Origin: Phycisphaera sp.
GTDB lineage: Bacteria > Planctomycetota > Phycisphaerae > Phycisphaerales > Zrk34
DNA: 64,000 nt
Direction of reading: 5' to 3'
Assembly: GCA_016125285.1 (NCBI GenBank)
Contig: WGMA01000004.1
Span: 1-64,000, forward strand
Shown here: positions 43,996-48,807 of the stretch, in pieces
How positions within the stretch are numbered: position 1 is the stretch's first letter
How the letters are laid out: the number at the start of each line of letters is the position of its first letter
The notes under the pieces: generated by a model
Told to the model about the DNA's origin: nothing
Database searches by the model: none
The model's input: the letters and a program-made list of their open reading frames with translations, nothing else
Translations under genes and position numbers: made by a program

Positions 43996-45096
43996 ATGAC
44001 CACGCTCGCCGTCATCCTGCTCGCGCTCGCGTTCGCCATCGCCTGTCCGATGACGGCGGTGATGCGCGCCGCGGCGCACAAGTGGGGACAGCTCGATCAC
44101 CCCGGCGAACGCAAGATCCACGATCGGCCGATCCCCGCGACCGGCGGCGTGGCGATCTACCTCGGCATCGCCCTGCCGCTGCTCGCGGGCATGATCGCCG
44201 CGTGGGTCCTGCCCGAATCCTTCTGGAGCGGCGTCGCGCCATCCATCGTCGAGCACCTGCCCGGCCTTCGCCATCAGACCCCCATGGGCGTCACCCTCCT
44301 CGGCTGCCTCACCGCCCTGCACGTCATGGGCCTCGTCGACGACCGCCAGAACCTCGGCCCCGTCGTCAAGCTCGTCGTCCAGCTCGTCGCCGCGGGCGTC
44401 CTCGCCGCGTTCTTCGACGTGCGACTCATGGAGATGCTCGGGCCGACCGGCTCGATCATCGCCACCATCCTCTGGTTCGGCGTCATCACCAACGCCTTCA
44501 ACTTCCTCGACAACATGGACGGCCTCAGCGGCGGCGTCGCGGCGATCTGCGGCACCATCTTCCTCGCCTCCGCCCTGATCGGCGGGCAGTGGTTCGTCGC
44601 CGCCGCAGCCGCCCTGCTCGTCGGCGCCGTGCTCGGCTTCCTCGTGTTCAACTATCCCCCCGCGTCCATCTTCATGGGCGACGGCGGATCGCTCGTGCTC
44701 GGCTTCCTCATCGCCTTCATCTCCGTACGCATCACCTACGTCCCCACCGAGCTGACCTCCGCCACATCGCCCGGCTGGTGGGCCACGCTCACCCCTGTCG
44801 TCGTCCTCGCCATACCGCTCTACGACATCACCAGCGTCACGCTCATCCGCATCGCCCAGGGCCGCAGCCCCCTCGTCGGCGACACGCAGCACTTCTCGCA
44901 CCGCCTCGTCCGCAAGGGCCTGTCCCGCCGCGCCGCCGTCGGCGTCATCTACGCCTGCACCCTCGCCACCGGCCTCGGCGGCGTCATCCTCGCCCGACTC
45001 ACCGGCGCACAGGCCGCGCTCGTGTTCATCCAGACCGCCATGATCCTCGTCGTCATCGCCCTGCTCGAACGCACACGCAATCACAACGAACTGTGA
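43996..45096 (+). CDS. Undecaprenyl-phosphate sugar-1-phosphate transferase (WecA/TagO family)
   Basis: 366 residues with about ten membrane helices. The MraY/WecA family motifs are present: HPGERKIHDRPIPATGG near residue 34, GLVDDRQNLGPVVKL near 113 (DD binds Mg), TNAFNFLDNMDGLSGG near 158, IFMGDGGSLVLGFLIAF near 225, and QHFSHRLVRKGLS near 298. It moves GlcNAc-1-phosphate or a similar sugar phosphate from UDP-sugar to the lipid carrier at the inner face of the cytoplasmic membrane, starting O-antigen or other exopolysaccharide. An O-antigen ligase-like gene follows after a repeat-rich gap, which fits that pathway. Confidence 0.92.
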   Translation: MTTLAVILLALAFAIACPMTAVMRAAAHKWGQLDHPGERKIHDRPIPATGGVAIYLGIALPLLAGMIAAWVLPESFWSGVAPSIVEHLPGLRHQTPMGVTLLGCLTALHVMGLVDDRQNLGPVVKLVVQLVAAGVLAAFFDVRLMEMLGPTGSIIATILWFGVITNAFNFLDNMDGLSGGVAAICGTIFLASALIGGQWFVAAAAALLVGAVLGFLVFNYPPASIFMGDGGSLVLGFLIAFISVRITYVPTELTSATSPGWWATLTPVVVLAIPLYDITSVTLIRIAQGRSPLVGDTQHFSHRLVRKGLSRRAAVGVIYACTLATGLGGVILARLTGAQAALVFIQTAMILVVIALLERTRNHNEL

Positions 45097-45136
45097 TCCA
45101 GGTCTGGTTGGCGCCGACCAACACACTTCGGGGTGG

Positions 45137-45168
45137 CACTGACAAGCGAGTCCGCGAGCTTGTCAGTG
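45137..45168. repeat. Inverted repeat with arms CACTGACAAGC
   Basis: Perfect 11-bp arms (45137-45147 and 45158-45168) with a 10-base loop, 41 bases after the WecA/TagO-type gene stop. It may end that transcript, although no T run follows. Confidence 0.8.
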
Positions 45169-45319
45169 GCGGAGGGCAGCGATCACGCGATGTCGGCACG
45201 CGTTCGGCTGTCCGGTTGCCTTCGAGCCGCAGGGGTCTGCGATCCTTGCGCGACCCCGCTTCACGTCGTCGCGCTCGACGCGACCCGCACGCCCCCGCGC
45301 GTTCGATCGCATGTCCCAC

Positions 45320-45355
45320 CCCGAAACGCCCCGGCTCTGGCGAGGGCGTTTCGGG
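45320..45355. repeat. Inverted repeat with arms CCCGAAACGCCC
   Basis: Perfect 12-bp arms (45320-45331 and 45344-45355) around a 12-base loop. Its sequence differs from the other palindromes in the gap. Confidence 0.8.
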
Positions 45356-45433
45356 ATAGGACATGCTGGTGAGATGGAGGTCGGCGCACGATCGTCTGCG
45401 CCGGCTCGCGTGTCGGTAGACGCGATCCGAGAA

Positions 45434-45468
45434 CCCCTCTCCCTTGAGGGAGAGGGCAGGGGTGAGGG
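45434..45468. repeat. REP-like element, family CCCCTCTCC (copy 1)
   Basis: Runs CCCCTCTCCC-TTGA-GGGAGAGGG then CAGGGGTGAGGG. The core is a palindrome. It aligns with the copy inside the ligase gene at 46981-47018 and with a reverse-strand copy at 45514-45540. Confidence 0.75.
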
Positions 45469-45513
45469 TGAAGCCTTCGAATACACCCCATGTTTCCCGC
45501 GCGGAACACCGTG

Positions 45514-45540
45514 ACCCCCTCGCCCAACCTCTCCCCACCT
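45514..45540 (-). repeat. REP-like element, family CCCCTCTCC (copy 2, reverse strand)
   Basis: On the minus strand it reads AGGTGGGGAGAGGTTGGGCG and then AGGGGGT, closely matching the second half of the copy at 46981-47018 (AGGTGGGGGACAGGCCGGGT, then GAGGGGG). Confidence 0.65.
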
Positions 45541-45615
45541 CGGCGCGATGGGTTTTGGGATAGCCTCAAGACGCAGCCCCATCACCGCGCGCGCCACGAC
45601 GTATGCGGGGGTCGC

Positions 45616-45638
45616 GCAGGGGGCGGCCAGCCCCCTGC
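45616..45638. repeat. Inverted repeat with arms GCAGGGGGC
   Basis: Perfect 9-bp arms (45616-45624 and 45630-45638) with loop GGCCA, 70 bases before the ligase start. Confidence 0.75.
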
Positions 45639-45710
45639 GGGTCGACGCGCGTCATCAAACCACCCCAGCACACCACCGCACACACCTCATATGGATGTAA
45701 GATTGCACCC

Positions 45711-48374
45711 ATGACCGCCCCCGCGAAACGCCGCACGCAAGACGCCCCGCCCGCGCCGCCCGCGGCCGGGTGGCTGACGCTCATCGCGACGCTCGGCGTG
45801 ATCGCGCTGGCGGGCGTGCGCATCGTCACCACGTTCCTGCCCGACGCGTACATGGCCGGGGACCCGCGCGCCGACACGCTGCCGGCGATCGGGTTCGGCC
45901 CGGCCGGGGCGGCGGTGATCGACTGGCTGTGCGTCGTCGCGCTCGCGCTGGCGGTGATCGACGCCCGCCTCCGCCGCGCCGCAGGCGGACGGACGCGCTG
46001 CGTCATGCTCGCCCTCTGGCTGATCGGCGCGGTGTTCGCCGTGTGCGCCGGCGGGCGCGACTTCGAGTCGATGCGCATCGGCGGACACTGGCTCGGCGCG
46101 CTGGCGCTGGGGATCGCGGCGACGCACGTGGCGCAGGTCGAATCGATCCGCCGCTTCATGATCGCCGCGTGCCTCGGCCTGCTGATCCCGCTCGCGGCGC
46201 AGGGCCTGTTCCAGGTCACGATCTCGCACGCCGAGACCGTCGCCAACTACAAGAAAGACCCCGAGGCGGTGCTGCGCACCCAGGGCATCGTGCCCGGCTC
46301 GACCAACCAGCGCAAGTTCGAGGAACGCCTGTACCAGGTCGAGGCGACCGGGCAGTTCGGCTTCTCCAACATCTACGGCTCGATGACGATGGCGCTGTCG
46401 CTGCTCGGCGCGGGCGTCGCGGCGGGGATGCTGTTCGGCGGCCGACGCGGCGCGACGATGTGGCTGGCGATCGCGGTGACCGCGCTCGGCGTCGTCGCGC
46501 TCGGCCTGAGCTTCTCGAAGGGCGCGACGCTGGCGTGCGGCGCGACGGTCGCGGCCACGGCGGTCACGTGGCTGATCGCGCGACGCCTGCGCTGGGGCGC
46601 GGCCTGGTGGCGCACCGCCGCGTACGGCGCGGTCGCACTCGGGCTCGCCGCGGTGCTCGCCCGCGGCGCGATCGGCGAACCCGACACCGCCGCCGGCGAA
46701 CGCTCGCTGATGTTCCGCTACCAATACCTCCAGGCCGCGTCACGCATGATCGCCGAGCACCCGGTCATCGGCGTCGGCCCGGGGCTGTTCAAGGCACGCT
46801 ACCTGACCACGAAAAACCCGCTGAGCCCCGAAGACGTCGCCGACCCGCACAGCATCTTCGCGTCGTACCTCGCGACGCTCGGGATCGGCGGCGCGGCGTG
46901 GTGCGTGCTGCTGCTGACGCTGCTCTGGCACGCCGGTCGCGCCGCGGCGTTGCACTGCGACACGCAACGCGCCGCAAAAACCCCTCTCCACCAGGTGGGG
47001 GACAGGCCGGGTGAGGGGGGCGATTCTTCGACCAAGGCGCGTCGCGCGAGCGACAGTCTCAACACACATGACGCCCCACCGTTCGGCCCGCTCGGCGTCA
47101 CCCCCGCCCGACTCGCCATCGCCATCGCCGTCGTCGTGTTCGCCACCGAGTACGCCGCGCAGTATGCGCCGGCCACCGGGTTCGTCGGCCTCGTCATCGG
47201 CGCCGGCGCGGGCTTCGTCATGCTGCTCGGCACGCGCGTGATCCTCACCGGCTTCGACCGCAAAGACAACGACGATAACGACGACCGCGACGACCGCGAC
47301 GGCGCGACCGGCACGACCCCGGCCGAGAAGGCGATCGGCGTGGCGATGTGGTGCGTCGCCGGCGCGGTGGCCGTGGGCATGTTCCCGTTGATCGGCGTGT
47401 GGGTCGTCGGCACGGGCGGGTTCATCGCGGTGACCGTCGCGCTCGCCGCGGCGCTGCGCGACGACCGCGTCGCCGCGTGGGCGTCGCTCGGCCTGTTCGC
47501 CGCCGCCGTCGGACTCATGCTGCACAGTCAGATCGAGATGACCCTCGTTCAGCCCACCAGCGCCCCGCTCGCGCTGGCCATGCTCGGCCTCGCCGCCGCG
47601 TGGCGCGCACGCACCGCCGACAAACCGACAACCGACGGCGGTGACGACCGCAACAGCGATGACCGCGACGCGCGCGCCGACGACGACAAGCCGTCGCCCC
47701 TGCCGATGATCATCACCGCATGCGTTGCGGCCGTGGTCGTCGTCGCGCTCGGTGTGACGCACCTGCGGCCCGTGCTCGCGCACGAGTCGCTCGTCGCCAC
47801 CGCCGCGGCCGACCTCAAGCGCGGCAACCTCGACGGCGCGATCGGCGATCTGTCGCGTGCCGCCCTCGGTGACGCCGGCTCGCTGCCGCCCGACGACAGC
47901 CTCGCCCGCGACGCGGCGCGCTACATGTACGAGCGCGGCCGGTTCGACGACGCGATGAAGCTGCTCGACGACGCCCGCGCGTTCGGCAATCGCCCCGCCC
48001 AGATGTACGCCGCCCAGGCGCGCCTCGCCGAGGCCTACTACCGCACCACACGCGACCCCAAGGCGCTCGCCCGCGCCCTCGACGCGGCCATCGCCGGACT
48101 CCCATACGCCCCGTACGACATGGACATGACCCAGAACGCCGCGGACCTCGCCTGGGCCGCGGGCCGACGCGACGACGCCCGCCGCTACTACACCCGCCTG
48201 CTCGAGCTCAGCGACCAGGCGTACCTCGACCCCGAGAAGCCCCTTCGCGACGACGCGCTCGCCGCCGTCAAGCAGCGCCTCGCCACGCTCGACGCCGCAC
48301 CGTCCACCCCGACGCCCGCGCCCGCTCCGGCGACGGTTCCGACCCCATCCGCGCCCCCCGCGCGCCCCAACTGA
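45711..48374 (+). CDS. O-antigen ligase/polymerase-like membrane protein with TPR-like C-terminus
   Basis: 887 residues from ATG 45711. There is no ribosome site, but TAAGAT lies 7 bases before the ATG, so a leaderless transcript is likely. About a dozen membrane helices surround the Wzy_C/O-antigen ligase motif near residues 340-410 (MFRYQYLQAASRMIAEHPVI, then GVGPGLFKARYL and ADPHSIFASYLATLGIGGAA). A Pro/Lys-rich loop around residues 423-460 is encoded by a repeat element. The last 200 residues are soluble and helical, TPR-like (LKRGNLDGAIGDLSRAALGD), ending in a Pro/Ala/Thr-rich tail. The family joins or polymerises lipid-linked glycans in the periplasm. The upstream WecA/TagO-type gene supports a role in surface polysaccharide. 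Confidence 0.82.
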   Translation: MTAPAKRRTQDAPPAPPAAGWLTLIATLGVIALAGVRIVTTFLPDAYMAGDPRADTLPAIGFGPAGAAVIDWLCVVALALAVIDARLRRAAGGRTRCVMLALWLIGAVFAVCAGGRDFESMRIGGHWLGALALGIAATHVAQVESIRRFMIAACLGLLIPLAAQGLFQVTISHAETVANYKKDPEAVLRTQGIVPGSTNQRKFEERLYQVEATGQFGFSNIYGSMTMALSLLGAGVAAGMLFGGRRGATMWLAIAVTALGVVALGLSFSKGATLACGATVAATAVTWLIARRLRWGAAWWRTAAYGAVALGLAAVLARGAIGEPDTAAGERSLMFRYQYLQAASRMIAEHPVIGVGPGLFKARYLTTKNPLSPEDVADPHSIFASYLATLGIGGAAWCVLLLTLLWHAGRAAALHCDTQRAAKTPLHQVGDRPGEGGDSSTKARRASDSLNTHDAPPFGPLGVTPARLAIAIAVVVFATEYAAQYAPATGFVGLVIGAGAGFVMLLGTRVILTGFDRKDNDDNDDRDDRDGATGTTPAEKAIGVAMWCVAGAVAVGMFPLIGVWVVGTGGFIAVTVALAAALRDDRVAAWASLGLFAAAVGLMLHSQIEMTLVQPTSAPLALAMLGLAAAWRARTADKPTTDGGDDRNSDDRDARADDDKPSPLPMIITACVAAVVVVALGVTHLRPVLAHESLVATAAADLKRGNLDGAIGDLSRAALGDAGSLPPDDSLARDAARYMYERGRFDDAMKLLDDARAFGNRPAQMYAAQARLAEAYYRTTRDPKALARALDAAIAGLPYAPYDMDMTQNAADLAWAAGRRDDARRYYTRLLELSDQAYLDPEKPLRDDALAAVKQRLATLDAAPSTPTPAPAPATVPTPSAPPARPN
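46981..47018. repeat. REP-like element inside the ligase coding sequence (copy 3)
   Basis: CCCCTCTCCACCAGGTGGGG followed by GACAGGCCGGGTGAGGGG is the same repeat family as at 45434-45468. It lies in frame in the ligase-like gene and encodes part of a hydrophilic loop (TPLHQVGDRPGEGG). Confidence 0.8.
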
Positions 48375-48807
48375 CCCCATCCGCGCCCCACCTCCGCGTG
48401 CGCACCGACGCGCATGCAATCCCCCGTCAGCGCCATTTCGTCACAAAAAGGTCATCGCCCGCTGCGGCCCCGGCTTATACGCGCCGCCCGCCCGCGTCGC
48501 GACGCCCCCGTGCGCACCTGCGCGTCGCGTGAGCCTTATATAGGAGGACATCGCGACATGACTCACCCGTACCCCACCCACCGTGCGCGCCGACCGGCGG
48601 AATTAACGTCCAATAAGCCGACGGGCGTCGCACACGTCGACACCCCCCTCCCCCCACCCCGTTATCGGGCTGCGCCTCACCGGCTTCACACTGCCGTACT
48701 ATGCCTGTCCCGCGCAAGGATTTACACCGCCCCGCCCCCGCAAAATCCGACACGCGCCCCATTTGGCCCTTTTCAACGCCCCGGCGCGGCGGGTACCATG
48801 TGGACCT
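48375..48807. other. 433-base gap with an isolated Shine-Dalgarno and short open frame
   Basis: Contains TATATA directly followed by AGGAGG (48537-48547) and an ATG at 48558. The frame behind it (MTHPYPTHRARRPAELTSNK) is proline/arginine-rich and runs on as a shadow of the next gene, so I do not call it. The end of the gap has TACCAT (48794-48799), 8 bases before the amidohydrolase ATG. Confidence 0.4.

Follow-up and report, generated by a model that had tools for sequence, protein, structure and literature searches.

Does a repeat that lies between genes in a Phycisphaera sp. genome also lie within one, and is it translated there as part of the host protein? The locus that raises this question is an O-antigen-ligase-like open reading frame at 45603–48374 on the forward strand of the window, by which we mean the whole 64,000-nucleotide stretch of DNA that was analyzed. 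In its longest form the frame encodes 923 residues, with an alternative start at 45711, and residues 292–432 match the Pfam family Wzy_C (PF04932; E = 2e-15). The initial annotation had proposed that a repeat element was inserted in frame at 46981–47060. With a probability of roughly 0.87, we conclude that 46979–47062 is half of a palindromic element of ~130 bp, inserted into a ligase loop between two putative membrane helices and predicted to be translated in frame.

Half of a palindromic element in the ligase gene

A full copy of the element precedes the ligase gene, at 45434–45554 on the forward strand, and runs from A to B (profile positions 4–137; E = 9.8e-22). Its A end (45435–45468, forward strand) reads CCCTCTCCC TTGA GGGAGAGGG CAG GGGTGAGGG and fits the published TM/PIT consensus exactly, and its B end (45514–45540, minus strand) is reversed and degenerate. 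The two intergenic stretches to which the ligase repeat had originally been likened, 45434–45468 and 45514–45540, are indeed its kin and prove to be the ends of this one full element. Across the family, ends of type A (CCCTCTCCC-TTGA-GGGAGAGGG-NNN-GGGTGAGGG) and type B (CCCTCTCCCCCAGGTGGGGGAGAGG-NN-GGGTGAGGG) stand in inverted order around a middle of ~60 bp, usually giving ~130 bp per element. Judged by sequence, the element consists of two GC-rich PIT/TM motifs, of the putative intrastrand-triplex type, in inverted orientation. Beside the intergenic copy, window positions 45309–45366 hold a separate inverted repeat with 23-nt arms that are 91% complementary and 12 nt apart.

A pattern with flexible spacing returned 120 matches in the 6.09-Mb genome (66 and 54 on the two strands) and none when run backwards as a control. 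From 31 two-ended doublets, with the ligase copy left out, we built a profile of 138 positions, which gave 128 distinct hits in 880,149 bases fetched around known copies; this copy set may miss a few of the 120 pattern matches. Terminal inverted repeats, a trait of MITEs, are present, as many copies match the profile on both strands. One B-half copy elsewhere in the genome (L088, G000:C23:109433–109503) apparently ends beside a possible start codon.

Within the ligase gene, downstream of the Wzy_C match, nhmmer aligned the profile to 46979–47062 on the minus strand (profile 137–54; 49.8 bits; E = 2e-13 in the 880 kb searched), close to the extent first annotated. The match comprises the B end and part of the interior; the A half is gone from the gene or beyond recognition, profile positions 54–137 being those covered. 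The B end itself, at 46982–47017 on the forward strand, reads CCCTCTCCACCAGGTGGGGGACAGGCCGGGTGAGGG, which bears out the repeat first placed at 46981–47018. Its first stem is worn and its second loop has two bases; it does not fit the strict PIT/TM(ECO) consensus pattern, and in a test of single-strand base pairing it folded no better than shuffles. Rfam gave no match in window positions 45000–48500. The half element is in frame and free of stops, and the ligase frame stays open through it, with frame c (described below) read as KTPLHQVGDRPGEGGDSSTKARRASDSLN, in agreement with the predicted translation that was initially proposed.

We compared this region with ligase relatives (60 searched, 53 with a match, best 29 aligned). 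Between two anchor columns our ligase has 56 residues, against 14–46 in the best 29 of 53 and 23 and 20 in the two closest, and the TPLHQVGDRPGEGG peptide occurs in 0/29 of these relatives. The DAPP that flanks the insert is alignable with the closest relative, and by eye the insert falls between two hydrophobic stretches. The annotation expected a loop of about 35 residues to be missing from some orthologues. All 29 aligned relatives have a shorter loop that lacks the peptide, and none of them shares it with different DNA; alignment to the closest relatives puts the size of the extra loop at about 31–33 residues. No close relative of the ligase was found in contigs of named genomes.

Because this loop is variable, its length alone would not settle insertion; the DNA match does. 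The variation in loop length across the order (14–46 residues in 29 relatives) and the GC-richness of the window would both suit a loop of ancestral coding DNA that resembles the repeat merely through shared GC-richness. Such a resemblance is extremely unlikely, given a match of E = 2e-13 over 84 bases, the empty backwards control, and a peptide that recurs in unrelated proteins and is missing from the 29 relatives.

In-frame copies in conserved genes and in a second genus

Codon scores on both flanks were obtained for 127 copies, the 128th being unscored at a contig edge. Fifteen had coding flanks of the same strand and phase, 11 of the same strand and another phase, and 8 of opposing strands; in 63 only one flank scored as coding, and in 30 neither did. 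Three of the 15 were dropped for stops in or beside the element (C27:15030, C63:156054 and C74:86821), which leaves 12 of the 127 scored copies within coding DNA with matching phase and no stop, namely those in the ligase and eleven further frames. A copy at C14:22084 passes a looser phase test but may lie ahead of the true start and was left out, and a 13th in-gene half copy, at C12:32561–32601, is read from the other strand only and stands outside the frame count. At C74:86821 (L139, 4601–5683), the element, in the motif's stop frame, apparently supplies the stop codon of a gene that is presumably TruB-like.

The hosts were named from NCBIfam, Pfam or solved homologues. In addition to the half copy in the ligase-like Wzy_C protein (contig C67), in-frame copies lie in HpnE (C5), a polyketide/fatty-acid-synthase-like protein with a FabA-like end (C12:32877), MnmG (C12:86782), a heavy-metal P-type ATPase (C13), DNA polymerase III alpha (DnaE; C21), a ThiF/MoeB-type enzyme (C61) and valyl-tRNA synthetase (ValS, ValRS; C90:48459). 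The copy in a PMT_2 protein (C30:160094) has a changed motif, and that in a PAP2 protein (C90:23240) a short right arm. Two further hosts, a heptose-kinase-like/HAD protein (C63) and a YpdA-like reductase (C74), score below the curated NCBIfam cut-off.

The inserts interrupt conserved families, among them ValS, DNA polymerase III alpha, MnmG, ThiF/MoeB, P-type ATPase, YpdA-like and HpnE. Alignment to solved homologues placed 43 residues against 2 in the YpdA-like reductase (query 360 to 404, chain 234 to 237), 72 against 5 in DnaE (query 662 to 735, chain 636 to 642) and 74 against 13 in ValRS (query 468 to 543, chain 295 to 309); in the ThiF/MoeB-type enzyme, query 223 to 252 corresponds to chain 173 to 171. 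The DnaE insert is missing from 11/11 aligned relatives, up to 74% identical (12 were found, and a fragment from genome G008, L289, was left out). In-gene peptides such as TPLPQVGERLGEGDGS are predicted to adjoin ValRS, DnaE or YpdA-like residues directly and, since the frames are unbroken, each host protein is predicted to have an additional flexible loop encoded by its part of the repeat. A second repeat, translated as NPKSEIQNPKS / RNPKS, occurs within the polyketide-like, ValRS and DnaE frames (L071, L156 and L083), in some frames close to the first.

PIT/TM motifs are present in many bacteria; of 150 genomes of the class, our own included, 43 contain the motif pattern. In G004, from another genus of the same family, we examined 62 copies and found the element read in the sense direction in two coding frames, encoding UvrA and an ArnT-like protein, and carried from the other strand in two more, encoding HemW and an unassigned membrane-like protein. 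Two in-phase flags in this genome were dropped, L176 as a 10-residue frame and L178 because the element precedes the likely start. By contrast, G178 and G083, from another family, had no in-gene copies among 32 and 35 examined (30 loci each), so spread into genes does not characterize the motif in general. The copies in DnaE, ValRS, MnmG and UvrA are insertions relative to orthologues, which indicates that the elements move and are not mere marks of unstable sites. The further in-gene copies that the annotation suggested seeking therefore exist: eleven more in the same genome, all in frame, together with the 13th half copy on the other strand and four in the second genus.

Two other accounts of these genes bear on this evidence. 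If genes that carry the element were dead or dying, an open frame would be a passing stage of decay; the element does lie mostly outside genes, and 115 of the 127 scored copies are not among the 12 in-frame cases. The hosts nonetheless include DnaE, ValRS and MnmG, which are expected to be essential or near-essential, and no stop interrupts their frames anywhere along the protein, with coding scores on both sides. For DnaE, a paralogous polymerase of the error-prone type is present, but no second full-length match was seen in the genome. We consider decay unlikely. An assembly artefact or chimeric contig might be suspected in a genome of 90 contigs, several of which end in an IS inside the repeat family, but at each of twelve junctions the coding sequences on the two sides share one phase, and comparable cases recur in the independently assembled genus represented by G004, leaving this scarcely credible.

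A single frame in the predicted translations

Sense reading of the motif GGGTGAGGG meets a stop codon in frame a, and frames b (GTG AGG) and c (GGT GAG GG) are possible. All 14 sense-read in-gene copies are in frame c (12/12 in our genome and 2/2 in G004). For C30:160094, C90:23240 and the two G004 copies the frame was assigned by visual inspection of the peptides, and the G004 calls were confirmed by a second analysis. Among 63 intergenic full copies in one orientation, frame b is open in 41 and frame c in 40; among 56 in the other, each of the two frames is open in 42. At even odds, 14/14 would have a probability of 2^-14, about 6e-5, for a rule that was noticed in the same data.

The two frames differ in the peptides they specify. 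Net charge was +3.9 and +5.3 in frame b and -0.2 and +0.6 in frame c; for the ten of 12 in-gene peptides included in this comparison the mean charge was -1.8, and loop-type residues made up 69%, versus 57–60% in intergenic frame c. The frame that is used is neutral and loop-like, and the frame that is avoided is basic. Mean hydropathy, which was also considered as the cause of frame choice, did not clearly differ between frames b and c and was rejected.

The frame bias also bears on whether the encoded stretch reaches the protein. Some in-gene elements elsewhere are known to be removed, and removal, whether by splicing of the RNA or the protein or by ribosome bypassing, would yield proteins without the stretch. 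We regard this as very improbable here: the frame runs through the element, nothing in the DNA requires removal, and a bias toward one frame would be pointless were the peptide never made.

For the copies within genes, the most likely course of events is the following. The doublet would move into many sites, by an enzyme or by a replication or repair event, and most insertions into genes would be lost. Those that survive would have a total length that is a multiple of three and would be read in frame c (GGT GAG GG), which gives a neutral linker rich in Gly, Pro, Ser and Glu, the alternative being basic and containing Trp and Cys. Such a linker may be tolerated as a soluble surface loop.

Spread of the element and its relation to known palindromes

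In 75 full copies, no target-site duplication was detected, no offset or length standing clearly above shuffled pairings. Within the stretches fetched, the element lies near none of the 4 Y1_Tnp places in the genome. A RAYT was considered as mobilizer and rejected, as the best Y1 gene (L061, G000:C22:84910–85251) is flanked by a different palindrome, inverted copies of CAGGGCTTGCGCCCTTCG. The initial suggestion that the element can spread into coding DNA thus stands as far as the in-frame copies go, but the ligase holds only half an element, and neither a transposase nor a mechanism was found.

The genome holds a separate mobile element, bounded on each side by GCAGGATATTGC, in 16 places, many of them near contig ends. 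It starts a few bases after the CCCTCNCCC arm (15 fetched, L157–L171, plus G000:C41:167102), and in all 16 cases the start point is inside the hairpin loop of a PIT-type repeat. This element seems to be an IS that uses the PIT-type repeat as a landing site.

Published elements resemble the one described here in part. Holder et al. (2015; PMC4666352) give the PIT/TM(ECO) consensus as CCCTCNCCC N3-6 GGGNGAGGG N3 GGGNGAGGG, describe the E. coli motif as also forming inverted pairs in which type A is joined with type B, and report the E. coli K-12 copies as always intergenic; the 262 genomes that they list for TMECO are proteobacterial. Our element shares with these the A end, which fits the consensus, and the inverted A/B pairing; it differs in that its doublet of ~130 bp lies in frame in coding genes and in a B end that deviates, with a second loop of two bases. 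As a review describes it (PMC10969869), the Rickettsia RPE is a palindromic element of ~150 bp found in frame in many unrelated genes and encoding a conserved peptide. In-frame insertion into unrelated genes is common to both (here 12 copies in our genome and 4 in G004), as is a one-frame peptide conserved across in-gene copies (14/14 in frame c), whereas the sequence family and the host are different.

Intragenic GTAG/CGTC REPs, which are short palindromes or their dimers, are likewise translated as part of genes, and Di Nocera et al. (2013; PMC3733652) name uvrA, DnaE, tRNA synthetases and truB among the hosts. These are the same kinds of host gene as for our element, but its ends carry, by eye, no GTAG/CGTC tag in their consensus, and no linked RAYT was found. 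The enterobacterial RU-1, RU-2 and RU-3, units of 127, 168 and 103 bp, are small MITE-like sequences with open reading frames fused into genes, as described by Delihas (2007; PMC2759123); they are set apart from our element, on that description, by their sequences. In the open-access literature we found no report of PIT/TM motifs in coding genes or of in-frame palindromes in Planctomycetes. In-frame palindromes are already known; what is new is that PIT elements form inserts predicted to code for protein, with a single frame translated.

More tentatively, and with considerable doubt, PIT elements might in this bacterial family act as a self-spreading protein insert, with DNA shaped so that one frame encodes a harmless disordered linker and coding DNA, which makes up most of the genome, is opened as a landing site. 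If this reading is true, the element would join the Rickettsia RPEs as another protein-coding palindrome, unrelated to them, and the two would have converged on similar hosts (DnaE, UvrA and a tRNA synthetase). The copies in DnaE, ValRS, MnmG and UvrA offer a natural experiment on how a linker of 30–45 residues enters a core protein, and the frame bias makes directly testable the old question of whether a protein-coding palindrome is tolerated by its host or favored by selection.
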